From NCBI RefSeq assembly GCF_039645585.1, contig NZ_CP147915.1, positions 1,116,001 through 1,180,000 of the forward strand: a stretch of DNA of 64,000 bases, in the 5' to 3' direction. This DNA is from Sulfurimonas sp. HSL-1656. GTDB taxonomy: Bacteria; Campylobacterota; Campylobacteria; Campylobacterales; Sulfurimonadaceae. The translations under genes were made by a program, and so were the position numbers. Below, piece after piece: positions 1 to 39,478 of the stretch (within the stretch, counting starts at the first letter, position 1; each line of letters opens with the position of its first letter). Below the pieces are notes generated by a model, which was not told the DNA's origin, searched no databases, and saw only the letters and a list, made by a program, of their open reading frames with translations.

Positions 1-1
1 A

Positions 2-5931: not shown

Positions 5932-5935
5932 TTCC

Positions 5936-5956
5936 AAAGCGAATTACTCCGCTTTT
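5936..5956 (+). terminator. Weak hairpin with T-run after the WYL gene
   Basis: AAAGCG and CGCTTT form a 6-base-pair stem around an 8-base loop, ending in TTTT, directly after the WYL stop codon. It may attenuate transcription from the restriction operon into the CBASS genes. The stem is short and AT-rich, so it is a weak candidate. Confidence 0.35.
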
Positions 5957-5978
5957 GCTCGTGCCATACTTCTATCGT

Positions 5979-5999
5979 ATGAATCCCCAAAAGATTCAT
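5979..5999 (+). promoter_or_regulatory. Palindrome ATGAATC-N7-GATTCAT, candidate operator
   Basis: A perfect 7-base inverted repeat with a 7-base spacer sits 30 bases upstream of the phospholipase start and 48 bases after the WYL stop codon. Perfect symmetry around an odd spacer suits a dimeric DNA-binding protein, and the adjacent WYL regulator is the obvious candidate. It could instead be an RNA hairpin in the leader. The proposed binding partner is inference. Confidence 0.5.
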
Positions 6000-6029
6000 T
6001 GAATAAAACGATATAGGAGTAAATACTTT

Positions 6030-7022
6030 ATGACAAATAATAAATTCAAAATTTTGAGCCTTGATGGCGGCGGTGTCCGTGGATACCTCTCAATAAAAAT
6101 TTTAGAAAATGTAGAAAAGCACCTAAATGATAAAGATGGAAATGAGGTACCAATAGGTCTGAGATTTGATTTAATCGCAGGAACCTCTACGGGGTCAATC
6201 ATAGCCGCACTGTTAGCTAAAGGAATGTTTGCAAAGGAGGCAAGAGAAATTTATGAAAAAAGCATGAGCAAAGTTTTTAAAAAGAGAAGCTTACTGGAGC
6301 GTTTATTTCAAAGTAAATATTGTTCTCAAGAGCTAAAAAATATTGTCTTTGATACCTTGAAGGATAGCGCGACTCAACAACAATTGGTTTTCAATGAGTT
6401 AGAGAGAGACTTAATAATTACTGCATTTGACTTAGATGAGTTCAAACCAAAAGTCTTTAAGTCAGACTACTCTAAGAAAAATGACAAAAAATTTTGTGTA
6501 TCAGATGCAATCATGGCTTCGACGGCTGCACCAACCTATTTCCCTGCTTATAGTGATTCGAAGGCGGGAGGAGTATTAATTGATGGGGGCATGTCTGCAA
6601 ACAACCCTTCATTAATAGCTCTCATTGATGCAAGACATTTTGATCGAAAGAGTAAGAAAAACACTCTTCCTCCTGAAACTTTATCTGATGTTTGTTTATT
6701 ATCAATAGGCACTGGTGACTTTAAGAAGAAACTAGACATTAGGGGTCTGAAGAATTCACCTAAATGGGATTGGGCAATAAACCTTGCCAAGAGAAACTCC
6801 CCTGTTAAAGAGGTCCTCTTCACTGCACAAGAAGAGATGGAAGAAAATAAAGTCCGATTGTTGTCAGAGACAGAAGGAGTTTTTTACAAACGAATTAACC
6901 CAAAGTTAAATGAATATATGGAACTTGATGATGTTCAAAATATGTATAAATTGGATAGATTTACATCAATTGAGGAACATCTTTCAAGTTTAGAAAAAAT
7001 GCTATTAGGAGCTTCAAAATGA
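6030..7022 (+). CDS. capV: Patatin-like phospholipase, CapV-type CBASS effector
   Basis: This 330-residue patatin has all three catalytic elements: the oxyanion loop D12GGGVRG, the nucleophile in G-T-S53-T-G and the acid in D185GG. In CBASS, CapV phospholipases are switched on by the cyclic nucleotide made by the neighbouring CD-NTase and degrade the inner membrane of infected cells. The CD-NTase gene overlaps its stop by 4 bases, which fixes the role. AGGAG lies about 10 bases before the ATG. The gene is strongly AT-rich compared with the rest of the window, consistent with horizontal transfer. Confidence 0.93.
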   Translation: MTNNKFKILSLDGGGVRGYLSIKILENVEKHLNDKDGNEVPIGLRFDLIAGTSTGSIIAALLAKGMFAKEAREIYEKSMSKVFKKRSLLERLFQSKYCSQELKNIVFDTLKDSATQQQLVFNELERDLIITAFDLDEFKPKVFKSDYSKKNDKKFCVSDAIMASTAAPTYFPAYSDSKAGGVLIDGGMSANNPSLIALIDARHFDRKSKKNTLPPETLSDVCLLSIGTGDFKKKLDIRGLKNSPKWDWAINLAKRNSPVKEVLFTAQEEMEENKVRLLSETEGVFYKRINPKLNEYMELDDVQNMYKLDRFTSIEEHLSSLEKMLLGASK

Positions 7023-8017
7023 TCTATGACTGTTCGAAAGAAATGATGGAATACTTGAACCAAAAAGTCCGTCTTCCTGCTGCTGAGCAAACCAAGTTGA
7101 AAGAGTATCGCGACAAAAATCTGACGCGGCTTGAAAACGGTTTGAAGAAAAATGATGACCCGATGTACAGCAAGTCTATCAACCAGGGTTCTTATGCCAT
7201 GAATACCATCAATCAGCATCCGGACAATGATTACGACATCGATGTTGGCATTGTCTTCACTAAAGACGACCTCAATGGCAGAAATGGCGGTGATAAGTCT
7301 GCACTGAATGCCAGAAAGATGGTCTGCGATGCTATGCAGGACGACAGATTCAGCCGCAAGTCGGAAGTACGGAAAAACTGTGTGCGTGTTTACTACAACG
7401 AAGGGCACCATGTAGATATGCCGGTGTATCGCACATACGAGAAAGATGGGAAAACTATTCAAGAACTTGCCAGCAGTGATTGGAAAGAGTCAAATCCCGA
7501 AGAGATAACGACATGGTTCAACGACGCCGTCATCGAGAAAAGTCCCGATACAAACAACGGCCGTCAAATGCGGCGTGTGACCCGACTTCAAAAGAAGTGG
7601 TCCAACAGTAGAGCGTCTTGGAATATGCCGAGTGGGTTCTTACTCACGGTTCTGGTAGATGAAAAGTATATCGATGTCAAAGACAGAGATGACGAATCGC
7701 TTTACAAAACGCTCAAAGCTATCAGGGATCGGTTGGTCTGGGATAAACGAATCCATCACCCTATAACTGGAGATTTAATCAGCGAAGGGAAAGAGGCACA
7801 GGTTCAAAAGCTGTACGACGAGCTGGATTATGCCTTGAAAAACACTCTTGCTGTCCTGGAACGAGCTGACTGTACTCGTGAACAGGCATTGAAAGCCTGG
7901 AGCTCATTTTTCAAAGACGATTTCTTCAAGGAAAAAATCGAAAAATCTGCACGCGCAGCAGCGGCATGTGCGTCAAATGAGATCATCGCCCCGCAAAAAC
8001 CATGGAGATCAAATTAA
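7019..8017 (+). CDS. CBASS CD-NTase, DncV-like cyclic dinucleotide synthase
   Basis: The 332-residue protein shows the polymerase-beta-type nucleotidyltransferase core: G57-S58-Y, then the metal-binding D73-I-D75 and a third aspartate at D133 (VDMPVY). The spacing and the helical C-terminal half resemble DncV-type (clade A) enzymes that make cyclic GMP-AMP and activate CapV. The product identity here is inferred from that resemblance and from the CapV neighbour. The ATG overlaps the capV stop as ATGA, with AGGAG 7 bases upstream. The last residues (ending PWRSN) look flexible and could be the tail acted on by the downstream E2-like protein. Confidence 0.92.
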   Translation: MIYDCSKEMMEYLNQKVRLPAAEQTKLKEYRDKNLTRLENGLKKNDDPMYSKSINQGSYAMNTINQHPDNDYDIDVGIVFTKDDLNGRNGGDKSALNARKMVCDAMQDDRFSRKSEVRKNCVRVYYNEGHHVDMPVYRTYEKDGKTIQELASSDWKESNPEEITTWFNDAVIEKSPDTNNGRQMRRVTRLQKKWSNSRASWNMPSGFLLTVLVDEKYIDVKDRDDESLYKTLKAIRDRLVWDKRIHHPITGDLISEGKEAQVQKLYDELDYALKNTLAVLERADCTREQALKAWSSFFKDDFFKEKIEKSARAAAACASNEIIAPQKPWRSN

Positions 8018-8649
8018 GCGCAGAGGATATTGAGTGGTTAATAACTCAATATCCTAAACTTCAAATCGACACATTTGCTAAAACCATTACTGGGGATATT
8101 GACTTTACAAGAAGCTATGAAGGTTATGAAATATCTGACAGCTACACTATTCAAATTATTCTGGAAGCATCTGGAAACTCAATGCTTCCGAAGGTCCATG
8201 AGCTTTCTAACAAAATAGCTGAAATGGCCAAGCGCTACAAGATGGAGTTGATAGATTTGCATATCAACACCGATAGGTCATTTTGCACAGTCATTCAAGA
8301 CAGAGAGCATGAGCTTTTTGAAGATAAATTCACCATTCAAGAATTTATGAAAAAGGCCCTTGAGCCCTTTTTATTCGCGATGAGTTATTTCGACAAAGAA
8401 GGTCGGCTTCCTTGGGGTGAGTATGCACATGGTTATCTCGGTCATCTTGAGTTGTTTGCTGAGGGTGGTATAGACCTAGAAAGATTGCTTGAACTTTTGG
8501 AGAAAAAAGAACTGGCTCAGGCTCTACTTACGAACAGACAGAGTAGATGTTTGTGCGGTAGTGGTAAAAAATTGCGAAAGTGCCATCCTTTCGTTTTCCG
8601 TGGAATAAATAAACTCAAAGTAAAATTCAAAATAGGGGAGTGTGATTGA
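8002..8649 (+). CDS. E2-like (ubiquitin-conjugating-type) CBASS protein with C-terminal SEC-C motif
   Basis: This 215-residue protein has the landmarks of bacterial E2-like proteins: an LPKV segment near 62, then DLHINTDRSFC with the candidate catalytic C95, and a downstream PWGEYAHGYLG block near 137-147. It ends in a SEC-C zinc motif (C183-x-C185-G-S-G ... C194-H195). In type II-short CBASS a lone E2-like protein, with no E1 or JAB protease, conjugates or primes the CD-NTase. No E1 or JAB gene is present here, which fits that class. It overlaps the CD-NTase gene by 16 bases and has no clear ribosome site, so translation is probably coupled. The E2 call rests on motif pattern. Confidence 0.75.
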   Translation: MEIKLSAEDIEWLITQYPKLQIDTFAKTITGDIDFTRSYEGYEISDSYTIQIILEASGNSMLPKVHELSNKIAEMAKRYKMELIDLHINTDRSFCTVIQDREHELFEDKFTIQEFMKKALEPFLFAMSYFDKEGRLPWGEYAHGYLGHLELFAEGGIDLERLLELLEKKELAQALLTNRQSRCLCGSGKKLRKCHPFVFRGINKLKVKFKIGECD

Positions 8650-9494
8650 TAATGGAGGAAGTTTATAAAATCTCAGCAAGCTATTATAAACGTTTGGAAT
8701 CTTTTTCTGCATATGGGGGAATAAAAAACATATATATTTGGCTTTTTCTCGTAACTGCTATAGTAGGAGTGCTGATTCTATTTAATTTTAGAAGTATTCA
8801 TTTATGGTTTATACACAATTTATCAGGTTTAGTCTTTCCATTTGTGTTGGGATCGTTGGAAATTTTAGGGCTAGGGTTTCTTATGGAATCAAGTAGATTG
8901 AGAAATAAGAATGTCATTAGACTACTAGCAGAAGAATTCGGTGTTACGGTGAAAACTTTTCAGGAAGCAAAAATATTTTTGTTGAAAAGATATTTGTCGC
9001 ATGAGCAGCACGAATTTGGGGAAGTGGCGAGAGTGATCCAAGATATGTTGGATCTGAGTGAAAAGTATTTTGATAGTAAGCATCCGATAGATAAATTTTT
9101 GCATTTTGTGTTCAATGAAGAGGCAAAAACTAGGATACTGACCTTATTTGTATTGATGTGCTCCATATTGACAGTATTGACGGTAGGTGCCGGAGCTAAC
9201 TTACAAACATTATATGAATCTTTGCACTATACTGAAACGAAGAATTTGTGGGCTGTTTTTGGTTTGATGTTATTGATGCTTTTAGTTTTGTGGGCGGGGA
9301 TTGTAATGTTGATAAAAGCATTTCGTAGAATGATGGTTTTTGCCAGTTTATCGATTGCAAAAGAGGATTCAAAAAATATCGAAATGATTAAATATTTGAT
9401 TGCAGATTTAATTAAATTTCATACTTTCAATAAGTTAAACGATGCAGATAACAGTAAACTTATCCTGGTTGATTATAAAAAGCTTACGAGGTGA
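8646..9494 (+). CDS. Unrecognised four-helix membrane protein, fourth gene of the CBASS operon
   Basis: I do not recognise this 282-residue protein. It has two hydrophobic helices near the N-terminus (about residues 29-46 and 57-78), a central charged soluble loop of about 85 residues, two more helices (about 165-185 and 200-225) and a cytoplasmic tail. It starts at TTG 8646, overlapping the E2 stop by 4 bases and preceded by GGGGAG 5 bases upstream; the ATG at 8652 is an alternative. Very low GC matches the rest of the island. The tight overlap argues that it works with the CBASS genes, perhaps as a second membrane-active effector or a partner of the phospholipase. Confidence 0.8.
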   Translation: MIMEEVYKISASYYKRLESFSAYGGIKNIYIWLFLVTAIVGVLILFNFRSIHLWFIHNLSGLVFPFVLGSLEILGLGFLMESSRLRNKNVIRLLAEEFGVTVKTFQEAKIFLLKRYLSHEQHEFGEVARVIQDMLDLSEKYFDSKHPIDKFLHFVFNEEAKTRILTLFVLMCSILTVLTVGAGANLQTLYESLHYTETKNLWAVFGLMLLMLLVLWAGIVMLIKAFRRMMVFASLSIAKEDSKNIEMIKYLIADLIKFHTFNKLNDADNSKLILVDYKKLTR

Positions 9495-9582
9495 GTATTT
9501 ATTCATTAAAGTTGTAAAAGCAATTTGTTTTCGATATGGCAAGGCTTACGGCCAAACAGAATGAATATCTTAAAGATATACA

Positions 9583-9987
9583 TCAGGCATTTTGGCTGTG
9601 AAGGTAGTCGTGATTCAGATGGGTCAGTGCAGCATCCCATGCGTTGATGGCTTTCGGCGGGGCTTTGCGGTCCAGGACCTGTTTCATTCCTTTGAGCAGT
9701 GCTTCGAAGATGAGTTCGAACTGTTCTTGTGTCGCATTGGGATACATGGCTTTGAATTTTTCTGCATACGTTTTCATCTTTTCAGGACGGTCGATAAAGC
9801 TGGTCAGTGCAATGACGGCAAAGCTGAATTGCTGGGGCATGTCGGCTTTGGCTCCCTGGAAAAGCACCTTCAGTTCGGGGTGCTCTGTCAGCAGGATTTT
9901 AAAGGTCTGCTCGGTAATGGCATGGATGTTCTCGGCCACCTTGGGCGCGCTTTTTTGCAGGTTATCGTAATGCTCCTCCGGGATCAT
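9583..9987 (-). CDS. Globin-fold protein without the usual proximal histidine
   Basis: The 134-residue protein resembles single-domain bacterial globins in length, helix pattern and the PELKVLF segment at the C-D corner. However, there is no histidine at all between the one just before PELKVLF and those in the last dozen residues. The segment that normally carries the proximal heme ligand reads EKFKAMYPNA. It may bind heme by another residue or not at all. I chose the ATG at 9987 because AAGGAG lies 5 bases upstream; the frame also extends to a GTG at 10005 with no ribosome site. It is monocistronic and lies at the border of the AT-rich island. Confidence 0.75.
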   Translation of the reverse strand: MIPEEHYDNLQKSAPKVAENIHAITEQTFKILLTEHPELKVLFQGAKADMPQQFSFAVIALTSFIDRPEKMKTYAEKFKAMYPNATQEQFELIFEALLKGMKQVLDRKAPPKAINAWDAALTHLNHDYLHSQNA

Positions 9988-10086
9988 GACACTCCTTTTA
10001 GTCACTGATGAGCAATTCTCATTCCAATCATTGCGTATTGCGATCTTTATGGCATACTGCTAGATAAACGAATACCTAGGACTCAT

Positions 10087-27291: not shown

Positions 27292-30200
27292 ATGAAATAC
27301 CTCCTCTCCATTATCGGCTCCATGAAAACCATGGCCGTGCTTATGATGGTCTTTGCCGTCTCGGTCGGATACGCGACCTTTGTCGAAAACGATTTCGGTA
27401 CTCCGACGGCAAAGGCGATGATCTACAACGCCCGCTGGTTCGAGGTGCTGCTGGGCCTCCTGGCGGTGAACCTCGTACTCAACATTGTCCGCTTCAAGAT
27501 GTGGAAGAAGGGCAAAGGGCTGGTGTTCCTGTTCCACTTCGCTTTCCTCGTCATCCTCTTGGGCGCGGCGATCACCCGATACGTCGGTTACGAGGGAATG
27601 ATGCACATCCGCGAGGGGGAGATCGAAGACAAGATCACCAGCTCGTCCAGCTACCTCAAAATCGTCTATGACGACAACGGAAACGTCGGTGAGTACAAGC
27701 AGGGGCTCTACCTCTCCAAGCTCGGCGGCAACGACGTCGATACGGCGTTCGACGCTGCGGGCAAGCATGTCACCGTCAAGCTGCTCGAATACATCCCCGA
27801 CGCCGTTTACAGCGTTGTCGAAGCCCCCGACGGCAAGCCGATTGCCAACATGATGATCACGGGCGGCGGTGCCCCCGACCAGATCCAGCTCTCCCTGGGC
27901 GAACAGTACGAGAACGAGAAGCTCATCATCGATTTCGACTCCGGCAAGCCGCTGCATGACGGCAAACCGGTGGTCCGCCTCTATATGGAAGGCGACAGCC
28001 TCAAGATGGCCAACGGTTTCCCGATGACCTACCTCAAGATGGACGACCAGAGCAGCGGCGCGGTCGCCCCGTCCCTGGAGAACGACGCGTCGACGCGTAC
28101 GCTCTATACGACGGAGAACGGCGCGAACTTCGTCGTCCGCAGCTTCCTGGCCAAAGGGAAGAAGACCGTCGTCTCCCAGGAGGCGAAAAAGAGCGGCCCG
28201 ATGATGCGCAGCGCCACGCAGGACGCGATGCGCCTGCAGTTCAGCGACGGCAGCGAGACCAAAGAGATCGTCGTGATGGGTACGTCCGGCCAGGTCGGCG
28301 TCCCGGCACCGCTGACGCTTTCGGGCATCCCGATGTCGGTCAGCTACGGCGCCGAACTGATCCGCCTGCCGTTCGCCCTGAAACTGACGGACTTCGAACT
28401 CGACCGCTACCCGGGCTCGCAGTCGCCGATGTCCTATGCGAGCGAGGTCGTCCTCATCGACAAGGAGCAGAACATCGAAATGCCGTATCGCATCTTTATG
28501 AACCACGTGCTTGACCACCGCAACTACCGTTTCTTCCAGTCCTCGTACGACCGTGACGAAAAAGGGACCGTCCTCTCCGTCAACCACGACCCGGGAACCC
28601 TGCCGACCTATCTCGGCTACTTCCTGCTGGCCGTGGGAATGTTCGGTGCGCTCTTCGCCAAAGGAGGGCGTTTCCGTCAGCTGGGCAAGATCGCCAAGCG
28701 TGCCGCTGAAGCGAAAGAGAAGCTGGCCGCCGCCTTTGTCGCGGCAGTGCTGATCGCTTTTGCTCCGCAAAACGCCAAGGCCGACACGAACCCGATGATC
28801 AAGGAGATCACCTCGTTCGACAAAACCCATGCCGATATGTTCGGGGCGCTGGTCGTCCAGGACAGCAACGGGCGGATGAAGCCGGTGGATACGCTCAGTA
28901 CGGAGATCCTGCACAAGATCAACCGCGGCGACACCATTCTGGGGCTCAACCCCAACCAGATCCTGCTGTCGATGATGCTGATGCCCGAAGCGTGGCGCGA
29001 CATCAAGATGATCCGCAGCGACAAGCTCGTCAACAAGGAGTTGGGAATCGACGCCGGTGAGAAAACGCTCGCCTTCAACCAGTTTTTCGAATACCCCGAG
29101 GAGCTGGCCGGCTACAAACTCAACAAGTACGTCGAAGAGGCCATCCGCAAGGCCCCGGGCAAACGCGACAAGTTCGACAAGGCCGTCATCAAGGTCGACG
29201 AACGCGTGAACGTCGCCTACATGGTCTATACGGGCGCGCTGCTGCGCCTCTGGCCGGATGCGGCGGACACGAACCATAAATGGGTGGCCACCATCGACGC
29301 GATCAACGGCTTCACGCCGCAGGAGAGCATGGTGGTCCGCTACCTCGCGGCGCAGTACTTCTCCGCCATCGACGACGCGGTCAAGAGCGGCGACTGGAGC
29401 AAGGCGGATGCCGCCCTGGTCCAGATCACCGGGCACCAGAAAAAAGCGGGTGCACTCGTCTACCCGGACGAGAGCAAGATGAAGCTGGAGATCTGGTACA
29501 ACCACGCCAACATCTTCGAGCGCCTCTGGCCGCTCTACTTCCTCGTCGGTTTCGTGCTGCTGGTCTTCGCCTTCGCGCACATCATCAACCCGCGTGTCAA
29601 GCTGGGGCTGATGGCCAAGGGGGCCTACGGTCTGCTCGTACTCTTTTTCCTCGCCCATACGGTCGGCCTGGCGATCCGCTGGTACATCTCCGGGCACGCG
29701 CCGTGGTCCAACGGCTACGAGTCGATGATCTATATCGGCTGGGCGTCGGTGCTGGCGGGCTTCATCTTCTCGCGCAATTCGCCGATCACCCTGGCGGCAA
29801 CCTCCATCCTTGCCGGGCTGATCCTTTTTGTCGCCCACCTCAACTGGATGGACCCGCAGGTGACGAACCTCGTCCCGGTCCTGCAGTCGTACTGGCTGAG
29901 CATCCACGTCTCCATGATTACCGGCAGCTACGGCTTCCTGGGGCTGGGGGCGCTGCTGGGCTTCATTACGCTGATCCTCTTCATGTTCAACTCGGGTAAA
30001 CGTTCCAAGAGCATTTCGCTCTCCATCAGGGAGCTCAACGCCATCAACGAGATGAGCCTCATGGTCGGTCTGGCAACACTGACGGTCGGGAACTTCCTCG
30101 GTGGGGTCTGGGCCAACGAGAGCTGGGGCCGCTACTGGGGCTGGGACCCGAAAGAGACCTGGGCGCTGGTGACGATCCTCGTTTACGCGGTCGTCATCCA

Positions 30201-30441
30201 CCTGCGCTTCATCAAGAAGATCTATACGCCGTATCTCTTCAGCGTTATTTCGCTGCTGGCGTTTACGTCGGTCCTGATGACCTATTTCGGCGTCAACTAC
30301 TACCTGGCGGGGATGCACTCCTACGCCAAAGGCGACCCGGTGCCGATCCCGGATTTCGTGCCGGTGACCTACGCGATCGTCTTTGCGGTCATCGCCCTGG
30401 CGGCCCGCCACCGCAAGCTCGCGCCGCTGGATGCCGAGTAG
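27292..30441 (+). CDS. ccsBA: Fused cytochrome c synthase CcsBA (system II)
   Basis: A 1049-residue membrane protein joining a ResB/CcsB half (about 1-470: four helices around a large periplasmic loop) to a CcsA half (about 750-1049). The CcsA half has the tryptophan-rich heme-handling signature WGRYWGWDPKETWALV and helix histidines such as SIHVSMITGSYG. It exports heme and attaches it to CxxCH motifs. The fusion into one gene is the form found in Campylobacterota. The start is ATG 27292, with AAGGA 5 bases upstream; the ATG at 27277 is not needed. A c-type cytochrome gene follows. Confidence 0.95.
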   Translation: MKYLLSIIGSMKTMAVLMMVFAVSVGYATFVENDFGTPTAKAMIYNARWFEVLLGLLAVNLVLNIVRFKMWKKGKGLVFLFHFAFLVILLGAAITRYVGYEGMMHIREGEIEDKITSSSSYLKIVYDDNGNVGEYKQGLYLSKLGGNDVDTAFDAAGKHVTVKLLEYIPDAVYSVVEAPDGKPIANMMITGGGAPDQIQLSLGEQYENEKLIIDFDSGKPLHDGKPVVRLYMEGDSLKMANGFPMTYLKMDDQSSGAVAPSLENDASTRTLYTTENGANFVVRSFLAKGKKTVVSQEAKKSGPMMRSATQDAMRLQFSDGSETKEIVVMGTSGQVGVPAPLTLSGIPMSVSYGAELIRLPFALKLTDFELDRYPGSQSPMSYASEVVLIDKEQNIEMPYRIFMNHVLDHRNYRFFQSSYDRDEKGTVLSVNHDPGTLPTYLGYFLLAVGMFGALFAKGGRFRQLGKIAKRAAEAKEKLAAAFVAAVLIAFAPQNAKADTNPMIKEITSFDKTHADMFGALVVQDSNGRMKPVDTLSTEILHKINRGDTILGLNPNQILLSMMLMPEAWRDIKMIRSDKLVNKELGIDAGEKTLAFNQFFEYPEELAGYKLNKYVEEAIRKAPGKRDKFDKAVIKVDERVNVAYMVYTGALLRLWPDAADTNHKWVATIDAINGFTPQESMVVRYLAAQYFSAIDDAVKSGDWSKADAALVQITGHQKKAGALVYPDESKMKLEIWYNHANIFERLWPLYFLVGFVLLVFAFAHIINPRVKLGLMAKGAYGLLVLFFLAHTVGLAIRWYISGHAPWSNGYESMIYIGWASVLAGFIFSRNSPITLAATSILAGLILFVAHLNWMDPQVTNLVPVLQSYWLSIHVSMITGSYGFLGLGALLGFITLILFMFNSGKRSKSISLSIRELNAINEMSLMVGLATLTVGNFLGGVWANESWGRYWGWDPKETWALVTILVYAVVIHLRFIKKIYTPYLFSVISLLAFTSVLMTYFGVNYYLAGMHSYAKGDPVPIPDFVPVTYAIVFAVIALAARHRKLAPLDAE

Positions 30442-30471
30442 AACGCTCCGCTGACGGCCTGACACTTCCCC

Positions 30472-30490
30472 GCGGTGCCATCGGCACCGC
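30472..30490 (+). terminator. Hairpin after ccsBA
   Basis: GCGGTGCC-ATC-GGCACCGC forms a perfect 8-base-pair stem with a 3-base loop, 30 bases after the ccsBA stop. There is no T-run, so it may act as a weak or factor-dependent terminator or an mRNA-stabilising hairpin. Confidence 0.5.
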
Positions 30491-30644
30491 ATCCCCCTCC
30501 ATTTTCACACGATTCAGAACCCTTTTGTTCCAACGTTGTACAGGACGAATAAGAGTGCTATTTTTTTCCTTCCGCTCCTTGTGGTTTTATGGGATTAAAT
30601 AATTTAGATATAATTTTTTTCGAATTGAAAAACAGGAGAGGCGA

Positions 30645-31076
30645 ATGCTGAAAGTAGTGATGATTGCACTGGTGGCAATGGGTATCCAGCTGATGGCGGC
30701 GGATCAGAAATTCAATCTGAAGTTCAACATGCTCAAACTCAATGCGGAGATGGGCGAAGCGCGGGAGTATATGATCCGCAACGACCGGAAAGAGGCGCTG
30801 AAAGTGTTCGCACGGCTTAAAACCGAGGTGCATGACCTCCTGAGCAACAAGGAGAAGATCGAATCCATGCTGCCGCCGGAGAAGAAGCAGAAATCAAACA
30901 TCGCCCTGGAATCGGCCAAGATGATCGCGGAAAATATCGAGCTGATCGAGGATGCCTACGGACCCAATACGCGTGACCTGACACCGCGCAAACAGCAGAT
31001 CAAAGCCCAGCGGGCCTACACTTCTATCGAGCTGGCCTGTTTCCACTGCCATAACCTCGTCCGCGACGAGTTGTAG
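30645..31076 (+). CDS. Small periplasmic c-type cytochrome, cytochrome c'-like layout
   Basis: A 143-residue protein with a signal peptide (cleavage near residue 19, MAADQ) and a helical body. A single heme motif, C-F-H-C-H, sits only about ten residues before the C-terminus. Heme attachment at the end of a four-helix bundle is the plan of cytochrome c' and c-556 proteins, which handle NO or electrons. AGGAG lies upstream of the ATG. It directly follows ccsBA, the machine that would mature it. The family assignment is by layout, not by close similarity. Confidence 0.78.
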   Translation: MLKVVMIALVAMGIQLMAADQKFNLKFNMLKLNAEMGEAREYMIRNDRKEALKVFARLKTEVHDLLSNKEKIESMLPPEKKQKSNIALESAKMIAENIELIEDAYGPNTRDLTPRKQQIKAQRAYTSIELACFHCHNLVRDEL

Positions 31077-31104
31077 CACCCAACCCTCTGCAGGCGGTGC
31101 CGCA

Positions 31105-31121
31105 CCCCGAAGGGGCTTTTT
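31105..31121 (+). terminator. Rho-independent terminator
   Basis: CCCC-GAA-GGGG followed by CTTTTT, 29 bases after the small cytochrome stop. The stem is short but GC-only, with a T-run, so it is a plausible terminator for the ccsBA-cytochrome region. Confidence 0.55.
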
Positions 31122-31174
31122 GGATGGAAAAAGGCACAATGGAGGATATGATCTCATAACGGGAGTTCCCTGTG

Positions 31175-32212
31175 ATGCATCCGGATACGTGGCCGCCGAT
31201 ATACCTCTATACCGCTTTTGTCCTGGCGGCGCTTGTCGTCGGATGGTTCGGCATCAAGATGACCACGACGGCACGCGACCTCGCCCATGAAACGGGGATG
31301 GGTGAAGCGCTGATGGGGGCACTTTTCATCGGAGCCTCCACCTCGCTTTCGGGGTTGACGACCTCCGTAAGCGCCGCCGTATCCGGTTTTGCGGAGCTGG
31401 CCGTCAGCAACAGCCTGGGCGGCATCGCAGCCCAGACCGTTTTTCTTGCCTTTGCCGATATCGCCTACCGGCGGGCGAACCTCGAACACGCTGCCGCTTC
31501 GGCAGAGAATCTTTTCATGACGGCCCTGCTGATGACACTCCTGAGTATCCACATGGTGGGGATCGCCGTTCCCGATATCAGTTTCTGGTCGGTGCACCCC
31601 GTCACGCTGCTGCTGCTTGCAGCGTACCTGCTGGGTATCCAGCTGTTGGCGCGCACGCATACGATGCCGATGTGGCTGCCGCGAAAAACACGCGATACCC
31701 CGGCGGAGAAACAGCGACCCGCCAGACGCAGGCCCGAGGGCATGCCCGGTCTCTGGGTCCGTTTCCTCATCTACTCATCCGTCGTTGCCGCAGCGGGCTG
31801 GTTCCTGGCACAGCTAGCCGTGCCGATCGTGCAAAATTCGGGACTCTCCTACGGCATCGTCGGCGGGATTTTCACGGCCGTCTCGACCTCCATCCCCGAA
31901 CTTGTCGTTGCCGTTACTGCTGTGCGTATGGGGGCGCTCAACCTCGCCGTCGGGGATATTATCGGCGGTAATGCGTTTGATACGCTCTTTATCGCGGCGT
32001 CGGATGTCGCTTACCGGGAGGGGCCGATCTACGCCGCCGTCTCCGGGGCGGAAGTGTTCTGGCTCGCGGACGCCCTTATCATGACGGGGGTGGTTATGAT
32101 GGGGCTGCTCTACCGCCAGCGCCACGGGCCGGGAAACATCGGGCTTGAAAGCACGATGCTGCTGCTGCTCTATTTCGGGGGCGTGGCCCTTTTGGGGCTC
32201 GGAGCGGTGTAG
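31175..32212 (+). CDS. Sodium/calcium exchanger-type (CaCA) cation antiporter
   Basis: A 345-residue membrane protein with about ten helices and the two inverted alpha-repeats of the CaCA superfamily: GASTSLSGLTTSVSA with SNSLGGIAAQTVF in the first half, and AVSTSIPELVVAVTA with IGGNAFDTLF in the second. The first repeat has serine where the second keeps the ion-binding glutamate of SIPE, so ion preference may be unusual. Either ATG 31175 or the GTG just before it may be the start; GGGAG lies upstream. Confidence 0.82.
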   Translation: MHPDTWPPIYLYTAFVLAALVVGWFGIKMTTTARDLAHETGMGEALMGALFIGASTSLSGLTTSVSAAVSGFAELAVSNSLGGIAAQTVFLAFADIAYRRANLEHAAASAENLFMTALLMTLLSIHMVGIAVPDISFWSVHPVTLLLLAAYLLGIQLLARTHTMPMWLPRKTRDTPAEKQRPARRRPEGMPGLWVRFLIYSSVVAAAGWFLAQLAVPIVQNSGLSYGIVGGIFTAVSTSIPELVVAVTAVRMGALNLAVGDIIGGNAFDTLFIAASDVAYREGPIYAAVSGAEVFWLADALIMTGVVMMGLLYRQRHGPGNIGLESTMLLLLYFGGVALLGLGAV

Positions 32213-32219
32213 AAGGGCG

Positions 32220-32651
32220 TCAGCGAACGACCTCCCACGTTTCCACCTCCCCCTCAACTGCGGTAAAGAGCGGATGCGTCTCTATATCCCGCAGTGAAAC
32301 GAGTGTGTTGTACCGTTCCGGATCGCGGCGTTCCAGTTTGTGCAGCAGATGCGATGTTTCGTAGGCGATCTGGCCTTCGTGTACGGGCATCACGGTGCAT
32401 TCGCCCTGTTGCACTATTTTTTGCCGGTTAAAGTTGTAACCTCTGCGCTCCGCCTCGTCCGCCACGAACCCAAGATAACAGGCGATGGCCGCCGTCGGAT
32501 CATCCGTCTGTTTAAAGCGGAGCAGCTGAGGATGGTTCCTGTACCCCTTTGTTCTGCCGAGCAGCACGTTCTGCGCCAGCAGCGCTTCGCGCCACAGCGC
32601 TACCAGCCCTTTGGCGTCGAGGTATTTTGGGTGGAGTGACCAGAGTCTCAT
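32220..32651 (-). CDS. Pyrimidine dimer DNA glycosylase/endonuclease V-like protein
   Basis: A 143-residue protein starting MRLWSLHPKYLDAKGLVALWRE and containing the TKGYRNHPQLLRF segment, the signature of the Pyr_excise family related to T4 endonuclease V. The family removes UV-induced pyrimidine dimers, although bacterial members are largely untested. It converges with the cation antiporter gene. Confidence 0.8.
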   Translation of the reverse strand: MRLWSLHPKYLDAKGLVALWREALLAQNVLLGRTKGYRNHPQLLRFKQTDDPTAAIACYLGFVADEAERRGYNFNRQKIVQQGECTVMPVHEGQIAYETSHLLHKLERRDPERYNTLVSLRDIETHPLFTAVEGEVETWEVVR

Positions 32652-32728
32652 TGCTCTCTTTTTCCTTGTTCCCGTACGCTGAACGGGGAAGAATGCCCCA
32701 CTATACTACAGGTATACCAAAAGCGGGA

Positions 32729-33067
32729 TCACGCCTTCGTCAGGTCGATGACGCGTGCAAGGGCATCGTTTTTCGAGAGCGTCAGCCGGACGACACTATC
32801 CGTGCGGGCCTCAAGGGAGTGGGGGACATGGGCGTCAAAACAGACGATCTGTCCTCGAAGCAGGTCGGCTGTATCGCTGCCGGACGTGACGGTGACGCAT
32901 CCTTCGAGCACCATGACGGTGATAGGACCGGGTGCAGCGTGTTCCCGCATGATGTTCCCCTTGTCCATACAGATGCGGATCTCCTTGGAGAAAGGGCTCT
33001 CCAGTATCTTTTCGGCGACGACCCCTTCTCCGAAGCGCGGCGCTTCGAGAAATGCGAACGTGCGCAT
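32729..33067 (-). CDS. Cupin-domain protein
   Basis: A 112-residue single-domain cupin: HAAPGPITVMVLEGCVTV near 43-60 and an FDAHVPHSLEA segment near 77-87 give the two beta-barrel motifs. It lies one base after the hemerythrin stop, so the two are co-transcribed. The ligand is unknown; metal binding through the two histidines is likely. Confidence 0.8.
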   Translation of the reverse strand: MRTFAFLEAPRFGEGVVAEKILESPFSKEIRICMDKGNIMREHAAPGPITVMVLEGCVTVTSGSDTADLLRGQIVCFDAHVPHSLEARTDSVVRLTLSKNDALARVIDLTKA

Positions 33068-33068
33068 C

Positions 33069-33476
33069 TCAGCTCGCTTTGATCATAGCGATGAAATTCG
33101 CCGTCACCGTGTCCATGGTCGCGATGTGCTGGTGAAGCCATAGCGGGGTGTCGACGCAGATGTAGTTGCGGATGATCTCATCGTCTTTCCGGTTACGCCA
33201 CTCCATCATTACCAGCTGGAATTCGTTCAGCGCGCGGTCGTGCTCGGCTTTGTGCATCTCATAGGCGGGGAAGCCCACTTCACGCATCAGCTGCTCTTCG
33301 TTGGCAAAGTGTTCACGCGTATGGAAGAAAAGCGCCTCGAGTGCGGCGGAGAGGGCCGTCTCCGGGGCGCCGGTGTCGAGCAGCGTCTCGATACGGTTGA
33401 GCTGTTCGACCTCCTCGGCATGGACGGTGTTCATCTCCTCAAAGGCGACGCTGGGGAGTTCGGCAATGGCGATCAT
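33069..33476 (-). CDS. Bacteriohemerythrin
   Basis: A 135-residue four-helix protein with a complete di-iron ligand set: H19, H56-x3-E60, H75-x3-H79 and H117-x4-D122. It binds O2 reversibly and may deliver or sense it, or scavenge NO. AAAGGA lies 8 bases before the ATG. A TATACT element at 33500-33505 on this strand and an FNR-type box centred near -42 suggest activation under low oxygen or NO. It is the first gene of an operon with the cupin. Confidence 0.9.
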   Translation of the reverse strand: MIAIAELPSVAFEEMNTVHAEEVEQLNRIETLLDTGAPETALSAALEALFFHTREHFANEEQLMREVGFPAYEMHKAEHDRALNEFQLVMMEWRNRKDDEIIRNYICVDTPLWLHQHIATMDTVTANFIAMIKAS

Positions 33477-33528
33477 ATGATGATTCCTTTTTTATCGCCA
33501 GTATAGGTTATGATAGGGGCTTGTGATA

Positions 33529-33542
33529 TTGATCTTGATCAA
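33529..33542. promoter_or_regulatory. Perfect FNR-type box TTGAT-N4-ATCAA
   Basis: The sequence TTGATCTTGATCAA is a full match to the FNR/DNR consensus. On the minus strand its centre is about 42 bases upstream of the start site expected from TATACT at 33500-33505, the class II activation position, for the hemerythrin operon. On the plus strand it lies between a TATGAT (33509-33514) and the ribosome site of the Crp/Fnr gene, a position suited to self-repression. Confidence 0.75.
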
Positions 33543-33554
33543 TTTGGAGGAGTG

Positions 33555-34199
33555 ATGGGACTGGAACACTGCTATCTGTTCAACCGGCTGGAAGCGGATG
33601 ATCTTGCGCTGCTGCGGGAAATCACGCAGGTTAAATCGTACAGCGAGGGGAGCACGCTCTTTTATGCCGGGGAGCGTCCCGGGAAACTCCGCCTGATTGC
33701 GTCGGGCGTCGTGCAGGTCGTCAAGCACGACACGGCCGGCAACGAGATCGTCCTGGCCCATTTCCGTGCCGACGACCTCGTCGCCGAGGCGGCCCATTTT
33801 GAAAACATCCCCTATCCGGCCACGGCGCGCTGCGTCACGGACGTGACGCTCTACGAGATCGATTTCGAGGCTTTCAAAAGCCGCTTTCTGAACCGCCCGG
33901 AGGTGGCGCTGGGGATCATCCGCTCTCTGACATACAAGATCAGGCAGCTCGAAGCGGTGATCCGGCGTACTTCGGTCGATGATGCACAGACCCGGCTGGC
34001 GCGTTTTCTGCTGGAGCATGCCGACGCGCTGCCTGTGACGACCCAGAAGCAGATCGCGTCGCAGATCGGCCTGACGCCCGAAACGGTCTCACGCATTGTA
34101 CGGCGCTTCAAAGCGCGGGGATGGGTCGAGGTGCGCGCGCGGAAGATCGTCATCATTGATCCGGAGGGGTTGAGAAGCCTCCAGGATGAAACGGAGTAG
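33555..34199 (+). CDS. Crp/Fnr-family regulator with FNR-type recognition helix
   Basis: A 214-residue protein with an N-terminal cyclic-nucleotide-binding-like beta domain (about 10-120), a long dimer helix and a winged HTH. The recognition helix reads E176-T-V-S179-R180, the ExxSR pattern that reads TTGAT half-sites. It has only two cysteines (C6 and C93), so it cannot carry the FNR 4Fe-4S cluster and looks more like heme- or NO-sensing DNR types. The start is ATG 33555 with GGAGG 4 bases upstream. A matching box lies directly upstream. Confidence 0.88.
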   Translation: MGLEHCYLFNRLEADDLALLREITQVKSYSEGSTLFYAGERPGKLRLIASGVVQVVKHDTAGNEIVLAHFRADDLVAEAAHFENIPYPATARCVTDVTLYEIDFEAFKSRFLNRPEVALGIIRSLTYKIRQLEAVIRRTSVDDAQTRLARFLLEHADALPVTTQKQIASQIGLTPETVSRIVRRFKARGWVEVRARKIVIIDPEGLRSLQDETE

Positions 34200-34318
34200 A
34201 GTGATATGAATACAGGCACAGATGCATATGACTGTTTTGACACGCATGAACCTATGCATACTGCCCCGATTAGACTTTTTTCACTTTTTGCTTCTTCGGA
34301 ACCGTTATAATCCCATCT

Positions 34319-36793
34319 ATGTTATCCGAACTTCCCATTCACGCTGTCCTTCCCGAAATAGGGCAGGCGTTTTCCGCTTCTAACCAGCTCATACTGCAGG
34401 CTCCGCCGGGTGCGGGAAAGACGACTGTCGTACCGCTGGAACTGCTGGAGGCGCAGTGGTTGGAGGGCAAAAAGATCGTCATGCTGGAGCCGCGGCGGCT
34501 CGCGGCGCGCAACGCGGCGCTGCGGATGGCGGAGCTCTTGGGCGAGGCGGTCGGGCAGCGGGTAGGGTACCGCATCCGGCAGGAGACGAAGGTCTCGGCG
34601 GCGACGCGCATCGAGGTCGTGACCGAGGGGATCCTGACGAGGATGCTCCAAAGCGACCCGGCGCTGGAGGATGTCGGGGTGCTCATCTTCGACGAGTTCC
34701 ACGAACGCTCTATCCATGCCGACCTGGGGCTGGCGCTCTCCTTGCAGTCACAGTCGCTGCTGCGCGACGACCTGAAGCTTGTCGTTATGTCGGCGACGCT
34801 CAACGCGGAGGCGCTGACGGGGGTGATGCCCGATGCCGCCGTCGTCACGAGCGAGGGGCGCTGCTACCTGGTGGCGTACAGTTACCTCGACATACGCCGC
34901 AAACCTCCCGAGGCGAAAACGGTCGCCGCCCTGACGGCGGAGACGATCACGGCCGCGCTCAAGGCAGAAACGGGCAGCATGCTCGTCTTCCTGCCCGGCG
35001 TCAGAGAGATCAACGCCGTCGAACGTGCCTTGCAGGGGAACCTCGGAAGCGACACGCTGCTGGCGCCGCTGTACGGCGACCTCGCCAGGGCGGCGCAGCA
35101 GCACGCCATTGCCCCTGCACCTGCGGGCAAACGCAAGGTCGTCCTCGCGACGAACATCGCCGAAACGTCGCTGACCATCGACGGGGTACGGATCGTCATC
35201 GACAGCGGGCTGGAGCGCTATGTGGAGTACGACGCGGCCTCGGGGATGAACCGGATGCGCACGCGCATGATCACGCAGGACTCCGCCGTGCAGCGTGCCG
35301 GGCGGGCAGGGCGGACACAGGAGGGCGTCTGCTACCGGCTCTGGCATGAGAACAAGCCGCTGGTGCCGCATGCACGTCCTGAAATCCTGCAGTCTGACCT
35401 GGCCCCCCTGATGCTCGAGCTGGCCAACTGGGGCGCATCCGTCGATGAGCTTGAATGGGTCGATGCACCCCCGAAACACGCAGTAGACGAGGCGTCGTCT
35501 CTTTTGATATCACTTAATATGGCAGATTCGTCCGGCCGCATTACGCCCCACGGCGAAGCGGCGCTCTCACTCGGCGCGCACCCGCGCATGGCCCATATGC
35601 TGCTGCGCGCAAAAGCGCAGGGGCTGGGGTACGAAGCGGTACTGATTGCCACGCTGCTGCAGGAGCGTACGGGTTTCAGCGGCACGGACCTGGGCGAGGG
35701 GATGGGGTGGCTGGACCGCTCCCTGCAGTCGGGATCGTGCGGCAGCGTATTGCACCACGCCGTCAACGTCCTCAAAAAGCGCACGGGATGCGAGCGGGGA
35801 AGTAAGGTCCAGCATGATGCGGCGGGAGTGCTGACGGCGCTGGCCTATCCCGACCGCATCGCCAAACGCCGGAGCCGGGGTTCGGAACGCTTCGTGATGG
35901 CCAACGGCAAGGGGGCGGAACTGGGCGACGCCACTGCTTTCCTGCACGACGACTATCTTGCCGTCGCCGAGGCCGGCGGGCAGGGGGAGGTGCTGCGCAT
36001 CTTCCACGCCGCAGGGCTGAGCGCGGCAGACCTGGAGGCGTGGTTCAGTGAGTTGATCCGGACGGATGAAGACGTTTCATGGAACGATGAAGCGGGTCGG
36101 GTAGAAGCCCTGCGCACGGAGCGCATCGGGGCCGTCGTCATTGCCCAGTCGCGCATCGCCAACCCTTCGCCGGAGCTGGTGGCGCTGGGCGTACTCGACG
36201 GCATCCGCAGGGGCGGTCTCGATCTGCTGCCGTGGACGCCAAAGAGCAGGTCTCTGTGCGAACGGGTCAATTTCGTCAACCGCCATCTGCCGGAGACGTT
36301 CGGCCCGATGGACGAGGCTGCTCTGCTAAAGACGCTGGAAACGTGGCTGCTCCCCTACCTGGAGGGAATCCGCGACCTCAAGGGGCTGCAGAAGCTCGAT
36401 CTCTATGCGATACTCTCCGGCCTGCTGGACTGGGACGCGCTCCAGCGGCTCGATGCCCTGGCACCCGAAGCGGTGACGGTGCCCAGCGGTTCGACCATCC
36501 GCATCGATTATACCGACCCCGGCCAACCCGTGCTCGCCGTACGCCTGCAGGAGGTGTTCGGCTGGGAGCAGACACCGGCGGTGCTGGAGGGGAGGGTAGC
36601 GCTGATGCTGCACCTGCTCAGCCCGGCGCAGCGGCCGGTACAGGTGACAAAGGACCTGGCGTCGTTCTGGCGGGAGGGGTATGCGGAGGTGCGCAAGGAG
36701 CTGCGGGGCAAATATAAAAAACACTACTGGCCCGAAGACCCCTACGAGGCGGTCGCGACTGCAAAGACAAAAAAGGGGATGGCCCGGGGCTGA
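34319..36793 (+). CDS. hrpB: ATP-dependent helicase HrpB
   Basis: An 824-residue DEAH/RHA-type helicase. It has Walker A APPGAGKTT near 31, the DEFHE box in LIFDEFHERS near 125, SATLNAE near 160, then LATNIAETSLTIDGV and QRAGRAGRT in the second RecA domain, and a C-terminal HrpB-specific region. HrpB is an RNA helicase of uncertain role in many bacteria. The length matches E. coli HrpB (about 810-820). Confidence 0.93.
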   Translation: MLSELPIHAVLPEIGQAFSASNQLILQAPPGAGKTTVVPLELLEAQWLEGKKIVMLEPRRLAARNAALRMAELLGEAVGQRVGYRIRQETKVSAATRIEVVTEGILTRMLQSDPALEDVGVLIFDEFHERSIHADLGLALSLQSQSLLRDDLKLVVMSATLNAEALTGVMPDAAVVTSEGRCYLVAYSYLDIRRKPPEAKTVAALTAETITAALKAETGSMLVFLPGVREINAVERALQGNLGSDTLLAPLYGDLARAAQQHAIAPAPAGKRKVVLATNIAETSLTIDGVRIVIDSGLERYVEYDAASGMNRMRTRMITQDSAVQRAGRAGRTQEGVCYRLWHENKPLVPHARPEILQSDLAPLMLELANWGASVDELEWVDAPPKHAVDEASSLLISLNMADSSGRITPHGEAALSLGAHPRMAHMLLRAKAQGLGYEAVLIATLLQERTGFSGTDLGEGMGWLDRSLQSGSCGSVLHHAVNVLKKRTGCERGSKVQHDAAGVLTALAYPDRIAKRRSRGSERFVMANGKGAELGDATAFLHDDYLAVAEAGGQGEVLRIFHAAGLSAADLEAWFSELIRTDEDVSWNDEAGRVEALRTERIGAVVIAQSRIANPSPELVALGVLDGIRRGGLDLLPWTPKSRSLCERVNFVNRHLPETFGPMDEAALLKTLETWLLPYLEGIRDLKGLQKLDLYAILSGLLDWDALQRLDALAPEAVTVPSGSTIRIDYTDPGQPVLAVRLQEVFGWEQTPAVLEGRVALMLHLLSPAQRPVQVTKDLASFWREGYAEVRKELRGKYKKHYWPEDPYEAVATAKTKKGMARG

Positions 36794-36865
36794 CCAGAAG
36801 CGGCGGGAAGAAGTGGGCATATTTGTGTTAGCATAGCATCAGAAAATAATAAATAGGAATATCTG

Positions 36866-39478
36866 ATGTTGACACTGCTTGCCGTTCTGATCATCTTTTT
36901 CCTCATCCTCGACCTCTACAAGAAGAATGGGGAGCTGCGCGAGCGGCTGGATGCGCTGGTAAAAGAGGAGAAACACGAAAAACGCGAGAAACCGGTTACG
37001 CCGATGGAAGCGGTCAAGGAAAAACTGCTCTCGCCTGCGCAGAAACCGGTGGTGGCCACGGATCACACTGCCGAAACGCGAACCCGGCCGGAAAAACCGG
37101 CCCATGTCGTCCCGGAACCGCCGGAAGAGGCAAGGCCGCATGCCCCGCGGGAGGAGGCTGCGGAACCGTCGCCCTTCGCCGAAGCGCTCAACCGTTTCAT
37201 CACCGGCGGCAACATGCTGGTGAAGGTCGGCGGCATCATCTTTTTCCTGGGGCTCGTTTTCCTCGTCAAATACGCGGCCGATCACAACATGATCAGCATC
37301 GAGATGCGCCTCATCGGCATTGCGCTCGGGGCACTGGCCATTACGGGGCTGGGCTGGCGGCTGCGCGAGCGTGAAGGCTACTACGGCCTTGTTCTGCAGG
37401 CACTTGGTGTCGCCTCGTTCTACCTCGTCGTCTACGCGTCGGCGAAGATGTACGGCCTGCTGAGCATGCCGCAGGCGTTCGTCATCATGCTGATCGTCGT
37501 TATCTGCGGCTCCCTGCTGGCCGTGGCCCAGGATGCGCTCATTTTGGCACTCTTCTCGGTTGCCGGCGGTTTCCTGGTGCCGATCCTTACTTCCGACGGC
37601 AGCGGTTCGCATATCGTGCTGTTCAGCTACTACGCGATGCTCAACATCGGCATCCTGCTGATTGCCTGGTACCGCTCCTGGCGGCTGCTCAATATCGCCG
37701 GTTTCTTTTTCACCTTTGTCATCGCGACGGCCTGGGGCGTGCTCCGGTACGATCCTGCGCTCTTCGCATCGACGGAACCGTTTCTGATCTTCTTCTTTCT
37801 GCTTTACCTGGGCGTCAGTATCCTGTTTACCTCCAAGCAGCCTTTTGACGTCCGCGCGTTTATTGACGCGACGCTGGTCTTCGGGCTGCCGCTCGTCGCG
37901 TTTGCCCTGCAGGCGTCGATGATCGATCAATACGAGTACGGCGTTTTTTGCAGCGCCGTGGCCGTAGGCACGCTCTACCTGGCGCTCTTCTGGCAGCTCT
38001 CGCGCCATACAAAAATGCAGATGCTGGCCGAGGCGTTCCGCGCGATCGCCGTCGTCTTTTATACCGTCGCCGTTCCCTACGCGCTCGACGACCGGATGAC
38101 CGGGGCACTCTGGGCGCTTGAAGGTGCGGCCGTCGTCTGGATCTCCTTGAAATATACCAAGCCCTACGGCGTTATTTTCGGGGTCGTACTGGAACTGGCG
38201 GCGACGCTGCTCTACCTTCTGGCGACCCTCGGCCGTCCGGCGGAGTACGCCTTTGCGAACGGGCTTTTTGCCGGGGATGCGGTCATTGTCCTGGCGGCTT
38301 TCTTTACCGCTTTCAGGCTCTGGCGGCATAGCGACGACGGCCGTAAAACGTCCCTGCAGACGCTCTCCTTCCTCTTCCTCGGTACCGGTTTGGCGGTGTG
38401 GCTGCTTGCGGGGCTCCAGGAATCGGAGCGCAGCAGTTTCGAGCTGGGCAATGTCATGTTGATCTATACCGCGCTCAGCGCTGCGGTACTCGCCGTGGCG
38501 GCGCGCCGTCTGTCGTGGGGCGCACTGGAGCAGGTCCTGCAATACTACCTGCTGCTGGGGGCGGCCACCTTCGCATCGCTGTTCTACCATTACATCGATT
38601 CGCACCCTTTCGCGGGGATCGGAAGCATCGCCGTCGTCCTTTTCTTTACCGTGCACTACGGGCTGTTGTGGCGCTTCGGGTCAGGCTGGAGACTGCGGGC
38701 GCTATTGCATGTTACGGGCTTCATCATGCTCGTGCTGATCCTGTCGCGCGAGCTGCAGTACGCTGTCATGCAGTGGACGGCGGTAGAGAGTCTGGCCTTC
38801 GGCGCATTCGGCATCCTCCCGATCGCTGCGCTGCTGCTCGTGGTACAGAAAGAGACCCTTTTCCCGCGCCTGGTCCGCGGTCAGCTGGAACATTACCGTC
38901 TGGTGGGCGGGATTACGCTCGCGACCATCCTCGGCATCTGGGAACTCAAGGGATGCGCCCTGGACGGTGCCGTACCGTTTATGCCTTACCTGCCGCTGCT
39001 GAGCCCGCTTGATTTGCTCCAGGCGGCGGGGCTGGCGGCCTTTGTCTACTGGCTGAACCGTGTCGAAAGATTGATGAATGTACCGGAGAAGATCGCCTAC
39101 AAAGCGGCCGGCATCGCGGCGTTCCTTTATGCCACGGTCCTGCTGGGACGGGTGGTCCATTTCTACGGGGAGGTCGCTTACACGGCCTACGCCCTCTCCG
39201 CCAGCCTTGTTTTCCAGGCGTCGCTCTCCATTTTGTGGAGCAGTATGGGGATCGCCGCCATGCTCGCCGGGAAGCTGCGGGCGGAGCGGACGGTTTGGAT
39301 CGCGGGGGCGGGCGTGCTGGGCGTGGTCGTCCTGAAGCTCTTTGTCGTCGATCTCGCCGGCAGCGGGACGGTCGAGCGAATCGTCTCTTTCATCTCCGTT
39401 GGTGTGCTGCTGCTTCTGGTGGGCTACTTTGCGCCGATCCCGCCGGTACGGCAGGCCGAAGCCGGGGAGGGGAAGTAG
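36866..39478 (+). CDS. DUF2339 multi-spanning membrane protein
   Basis: An 870-residue protein starting with one hydrophobic helix, a charged, proline-rich linker (about 30-110) and then about 20 or more transmembrane helices (GGNMLVKVGGIIFFLGLVFLV near 112 is the first of the set). This is the DUF2339 layout; the function is unknown, though a membrane or cell-envelope role is likely. AGGAA lies upstream of the ATG. It converges with lolA. Confidence 0.88.
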   Translation: MLTLLAVLIIFFLILDLYKKNGELRERLDALVKEEKHEKREKPVTPMEAVKEKLLSPAQKPVVATDHTAETRTRPEKPAHVVPEPPEEARPHAPREEAAEPSPFAEALNRFITGGNMLVKVGGIIFFLGLVFLVKYAADHNMISIEMRLIGIALGALAITGLGWRLREREGYYGLVLQALGVASFYLVVYASAKMYGLLSMPQAFVIMLIVVICGSLLAVAQDALILALFSVAGGFLVPILTSDGSGSHIVLFSYYAMLNIGILLIAWYRSWRLLNIAGFFFTFVIATAWGVLRYDPALFASTEPFLIFFFLLYLGVSILFTSKQPFDVRAFIDATLVFGLPLVAFALQASMIDQYEYGVFCSAVAVGTLYLALFWQLSRHTKMQMLAEAFRAIAVVFYTVAVPYALDDRMTGALWALEGAAVVWISLKYTKPYGVIFGVVLELAATLLYLLATLGRPAEYAFANGLFAGDAVIVLAAFFTAFRLWRHSDDGRKTSLQTLSFLFLGTGLAVWLLAGLQESERSSFELGNVMLIYTALSAAVLAVAARRLSWGALEQVLQYYLLLGAATFASLFYHYIDSHPFAGIGSIAVVLFFTVHYGLLWRFGSGWRLRALLHVTGFIMLVLILSRELQYAVMQWTAVESLAFGAFGILPIAALLLVVQKETLFPRLVRGQLEHYRLVGGITLATILGIWELKGCALDGAVPFMPYLPLLSPLDLLQAAGLAAFVYWLNRVERLMNVPEKIAYKAAGIAAFLYATVLLGRVVHFYGEVAYTAYALSASLVFQASLSILWSSMGIAAMLAGKLRAERTVWIAGAGVLGVVVLKLFVVDLAGSGTVERIVSFISVGVLLLLVGYFAPIPPVRQAEAGEGK

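Follow-up and report, generated by a model that had tools for sequence, protein, structure and literature searches.

A conserved FNR-type box between a probable bacteriohemerythrin-cupin operon and a cluster-less Crp/Fnr regulator gene in Sulfurimonas sp. HSL-1656

In Sulfurimonas sp. HSL-1656, a bacteriohemerythrin gene and a gene for a Crp/Fnr-type regulator diverge from a 78-bp spacer that contains a perfect FNR-type box. This arrangement raises the questions of which protein reads the box, what it does to the two genes, and to which signal it responds. The DNA analyzed here, called the window, is a stretch of 64,000 nucleotides (NZ_CP147915.1, positions 1,116,001 to 1,180,000), and coordinates refer to it unless they are preceded by a genome label. 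Seven orthologous loci were compared: that of the window, those of G003, G004, G005, and G007 (same genus), and those of G023 and G101 (same family, other genera). The features of the locus are as follows.

32729 to 33067, minus strand: cupin-domain protein (PF07883), in a probable operon with the hemerythrin gene
33069 to 33476, minus strand: bacteriohemerythrin (PF01814, TIGR02481) with all seven iron-ligand positions
33500 to 33505, minus strand: predicted -10 hexamer of the hemerythrin-cupin promoter, TATACT, 23 nt from the box; a consensus scan agrees
33509 to 33514, plus strand: predicted -10 hexamer of the regulator, TATGAT, kept in G003, G004, G005, and G007 and TACTAT in G101
33529 to 33542, no strand assigned: FNR-type box TTGATCTTGATCAA, an exact match common to both promoters and in place in seven orthologous loci
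33547 to 33551, plus strand: likely ribosome-binding site of the regulator gene, GGAGG, judged from sequence and conserved in the genus
33555 to 34199, plus strand: Crp/Fnr regulator (PF13545 and PF00027) with an ExxSR helix and without the FNR cluster cysteines

The two genes, the box, and the predicted promoters

The regulator belongs to the Crp/Fnr superfamily, with scores of 63.3 bits for PF00027 and 66.5 bits for PF13545 (cutoffs, 27 to 27.5). Alignment with Escherichia coli FNR revealed no cysteine at the positions of Cys20, Cys23, Cys29, and Cys122, and the protein is thus not an FNR proper of the 4Fe-4S type. Glu209, Ser212, and Arg213 (the ExxSR recognition helix for TTGAT half-sites) are kept in the regulator and in all of the aligned homologues, and the alignment therefore agrees with an earlier note on this DNA, which had described a regulator with an ExxSR helix that lacks the FNR cysteines. 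The cAMP contacts Arg83 and Ser84 of CRP (counting Met as 1) are also absent, being replaced by Tyr and Pro in the alignment with CRP. The regulator is probably nearest to the DNR-type/Nss regulators of Campylobacterota. Single-sequence structure prediction gave a mean pLDDT of 50.5. The ATG at 33555 lies behind the GGAGG. A start codon farther upstream, at 33510, was discarded because the segment between the box and the ATG differs in length by one base in G003, which breaks that frame.

The hemerythrin scored above the cutoff for PF01814 and reached 64.2 for TIGR02481 (cutoff, 51.75); its score for the subfamily model NF033749 was 63.7, under the cutoff of 84. Its di-iron ligands H, HxxxE, HxxxH, and HxxxxD were found at 7/7 positions in the alignment and are conserved in the aligned homologues. 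The ATG of the cupin gene is located one base beyond the hemerythrin stop codon, and the two genes also adjoin in G004, G005, G007, G023, and G101; they probably form one operon. A pyrimidine dimer DNA glycosylase gene (PF03013; 32220 to 32651) follows downstream of the cupin gene on the same minus strand and is kept there in G004, G005, and G007.

A pattern scan identified TTGATCTTGATCAA as the sole exact TTGAT-N4-ATCAA in the 64-kb window. The whole genome of 2,556,179 bp contains four perfect boxes versus none for a reversed-pattern control, and a spacer of 78 bp with the same composition would contain a perfect box with a probability of ~2e-4. One-mismatch boxes numbered seven in the window versus 1.8 expected, an excess that we did not take as a signal, as it is largely due to four matches at 5762 to 6969 in an AT-rich island. 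This island (window positions 1 to 10000; 38 to 40% GC versus ~59% elsewhere) encodes a protein that by eye is HsdS-like (3707 to 5017), a WYL protein (5014 to 5931), a patatin-like phospholipase (6030 to 7022), and a DncV-like nucleotidyltransferase (7019 to 8017), and it looks like a CBASS defense island. No Rfam family was found at window positions 30000 to 37000.

On the minus strand, the hexamer TATACT (33505 to 33500) lies 23 nt past the box, which places the predicted hemerythrin transcription start near 33493 and the box center at -42.5. Only a poor -35-like hexamer was found beside TATACT in the consensus scan. A site centered near -41.5 together with a weak -35 is the arrangement of class II FNR-type promoters, and it is the one seen here on the basis of predicted starts. 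The earlier note had put the box about 42 bases upstream of the hemerythrin start; this holds for the predicted transcription start, whereas the ATG at 33476 is ~60 bases from the box center. On the plus strand, TATGAT predicts a regulator start near 33521, so that the box would cover about +9 to +22, just downstream of the predicted regulator promoter, as the note had it.

Conservation of the box and of its distance to the hemerythrin promoter

A sequence of the form TTGAY-N4-RTCAA is present between the hemerythrin and regulator genes in all seven orthologous loci, including that of the window, and a hemerythrin -10 hexamer (TATACT or TACAAT) lies 22 to 23 nt from it in every case, giving predicted centers at -41.5 or -42.5. 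The four bases at the center of the box and a large part of the spacer differ among these loci. The perfect TTGAT-N4-ATCAA that had first been noticed between the two genes thus exists at 33529 to 33542, and its position is kept by the orthologues. In G003 (L011 and L022), the regulator frame is interrupted and just 33 hemerythrin residues match at the expected place, which may reflect decay or an assembly error.

The box was also found in a second regulator clade, family f16, whose regulators and hemerythrins are ~32% and ~35% identical, respectively, to those of the window. The box or a one-mismatch form of it (TTGAY-N4-RTTAA) is present in 10 of the 11 divergent f16 loci, each time 22 nt from a TATAAT-like hexamer; no good box was found in the remaining divergent locus, L159. 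The distance between the box and the -10 hexamer is therefore 22 to 23 nt in 17 loci of both clades, with starts that are predicted. Among the loci with a box, the length of the spacer (57 to 117 bp) and the distance from the box to the regulator ATG (9 to 57 nt) vary, suggesting that it is the hemerythrin side that selection holds. The observation is stronger than first reported, since the predicted class II position is confirmed to be kept across two regulator clades. Perfect boxes do arise by chance, and the fourth one of this genome (G000:1429072), which is located inside a coding sequence, was put down to it. However, a chance origin of TTGATCTTGATCAA is contradicted already by conservation, given that seven orthologues keep the box in place while its central N4 varies and that it recurs in the second clade, and, with the low expectation for the spacer, we regard such an origin as having next to no probability.

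In the regulator tree, the window regulator falls into its own supported group, separate from f16 and from the clade of napA-linked regulators; NapA-linked and NOR-linked homologues belong to the same wider tree but to other clades. Descent of the two hemerythrin-linked clades from one ancestral regulator was neither shown nor rejected (p-AU, 0.086). A third regulator clade (L025, L026, L033, L119, and L123) faces an HHE-type hemerythrin gene and has TTGAY-N4-GTCAA near the regulator start, without the 22-nt spacing. This spacing was also rejected as a trait of every gene divergent from an Nss-type regulator, as HHE and DUF2249 partners mostly lack it.

Some loci contain a hemerythrin gene that no longer faces the regulator. 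At L167 (G259, f16 clade), where the two genes are not divergent, a perfect box, TTGATTTAAATCAA, is still located 22 nt from TATAAT, and at L047 (G021), TTGACCTATATCAA is found upstream of a hemerythrin gene that is followed, on the same strand, by a regulator gene. No good box was identified upstream of the hemerythrin gene in five other nondivergent loci (L160, L166, L171, L173, and L175); L158 could not be judged and was left out of this comparison. As the box and its spacing are kept in both clades, and at L167 also, activation of the hemerythrin gene would be the conserved role of the box.

Reader of the box and direction of control

We assign a probability of roughly 0.7 to the reading that the box serves as operator in a local switch, through which the adjacent cluster-less regulator would activate the hemerythrin-cupin genes in class II fashion and limit its own transcription. 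A dimer of the adjacent Crp/Fnr protein would bind TTGAT-N4-ATCAA at -41.5/-42.5 of the hemerythrin-cupin promoter and, as a class II activator, recruit RNA polymerase to a promoter that has no good -35. The same dimer, bound in or just after the promoter of the regulator, would limit transcription of the regulator gene. The earlier note had predicted both activation of the hemerythrin-cupin operon and self-repression. Its first half is backed by an FNR-type box at a deeply conserved class II position, from which we infer binding by the adjacent regulator and activation of hemerythrin. Self-repression is suggested by geometry and is plausible: in divergent arrangements, the box falls within the regulator promoter, directly behind it, or close to it. 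It would be weakly constrained, since the distance between the box and the regulator ATG varies.

As the box shares bases with the -35 region of the hemerythrin promoter, the bound protein might repress both genes, blocking polymerase at -41.5 of hemerythrin and inside the regulator promoter. However, a repressor would not need a spacing fixed at 22 to 23 nt across two clades, and the poor -35 of the hemerythrin promoter is as expected of activator-dependent promoters. We consider such double repression improbable.

The genome encodes two further Crp/Fnr proteins with the ExxSR helix, one beside a quinol NO reductase (qNOR) gene (G000:1775218 to 1775829) and one beside napA (G000:1764179 to 1764874). 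Upstream of the qNOR gene and of an HHE hemerythrin-DUF2249 cluster there are likewise perfect TTGAT boxes at class II distance, 22 nt from TATAGT and 23 nt from TAAGAT, respectively; both boxes are exact in G005. These proteins and boxes would fit a situation in which another Crp/Fnr protein, such as the qNOR- or NapA-linked paralogue, is the main reader of the box TTGATCTTGATCAA and the hemerythrin gene belongs to a wider NO/nitrate regulon. However, the box is kept in G004, G007, and G023, which have no qNOR, and the sites near the napA-linked paralogue differ, having the form TTGAC-N4-GTCAA. In addition, no close homologue of either paralogue was found in G004 and G007, which keep the unit of regulator, box, and hemerythrin; more distant ExxSR Crp/Fnr proteins remain in these two genomes. 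Since the box persists there without close homologues of the paralogues, the adjacent regulator is favored as its probable reader, and control mainly by a paralogue seems unlikely.

Two other sites were recorded in the same genome. One, TTGACCTCGGTCAA (L012; G000:1764905), is located 30 bases upstream of the napA-linked Crp/Fnr gene, and the other, TTGACGCATGTCAA (L013; G000:1783833), lies between a gene for a 672-residue ribonucleotide reductase-like protein (31 bases away) and a small divergent gene (51 bases away).

Candidate signals and known systems

The genomic context gives mixed signs of a response to NO, nitrate, or N2O. According to the earlier note, heme or NO would be the means of sensing, and the adjacent regulator may indeed be a DNR-like NO sensor in which NO, perhaps through heme, triggers hemerythrin activation. 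The Nss regulators, which are the nearest described relatives in the phylum, have nitrate, NO, or N2O as signals (PMC6682613), a box of the same type is found near qNOR in this genome, and DNR is among the solved relatives of the regulator, the structure 3dkw being a remote match (54 bits) that is not the closest of the solved chains. However, the complete genomes G004 and G007 keep the unit and yielded no NapA above the cutoff, no NirS, and no NOR match; in G023, NapA and NOR are absent and the NirS domain gave only a marginal match. Retention of the unit in genomes that lack NapA, NirS, and detectable NOR argues against NO from endogenous denitrification, a comparison that leaves external NO and NO from NrfA, NirK, or NarG unaffected. 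Furthermore, the alignment shows His58 and His81 to be conserved within the window clade and not in f16, so that no heme ligand can be named from a histidine conserved across both hemerythrin-linked clades. The sensor assignment of the note thus found no support in these comparisons, although NO sensing by the adjacent regulator remains a reading to which we give somewhat less than an even chance. As the signal, we slightly prefer low oxygen or the redox state to NO. More tentatively, the unit could be a dedicated hemerythrin switch of Campylobacterota, in which bacteriohemerythrin is controlled by a cluster-less Crp/Fnr protein that has oxygen or redox state, and not denitrification NO, as its signal.

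Campylobacterota possess Crp/Fnr proteins known as Nss regulators, which are described as having a DNR-type DNA-binding domain and have the consensus TTGA-N6-TCAA; in Nitrosophilus labii the exact sites begin 48 to 49 nt upstream of transcription starts (PMC11539149). The window box matches this consensus near -41.5 of its predicted target, and its position is that of the N. labii sites. Named Nss regulators are NssR of Campylobacter jejuni and NssA, NssB, and NssC of Wolinella succinogenes. However, known Nss targets are denitrification, nitrite reductase, and globin genes, whereas the candidate target here is a bacteriohemerythrin-cupin operon that also occurs in genomes without NapA. DNR of Pseudomonas likewise recognizes TTGAT-N4-ATCAA (PMC1274295) and lacks the FNR cluster but controls denitrification genes in response to NO. 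In Pseudomonas aeruginosa, the bacteriohemerythrin gene mhr is under the control of the FNR-type regulator Anr (PMC12403760), as proposed here; Anr, however, is a global iron-sulfur cluster protein, whereas the window regulator is local, cluster-less, and encoded beside its putative target. The FNR-like HcpR has predicted regulons that often include hemerythrin-like genes (PMC1274295), although their core target is hcp. HerA and HerB of C. jejuni are hemerythrins of a microaerophile that help to shield iron-sulfur enzymes from oxygen, as described in the part of PMC4257069 considered here, which names no regulator or box for them. We found no description of a divergent Crp/Fnr-bacteriohemerythrin pair in the openly licensed papers searched.

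Orthologues of FNR, ArcA, and NarP are reported to be absent from Campylobacterota (review, PMC6682613), which raises the question of how gene expression in these bacteria is adjusted to oxygen. The compact unit of regulator, box, and hemerythrin, which is conserved even where nitrate respiration is absent, would make a simple model for possible oxygen sensing by a cluster-less Crp/Fnr protein.
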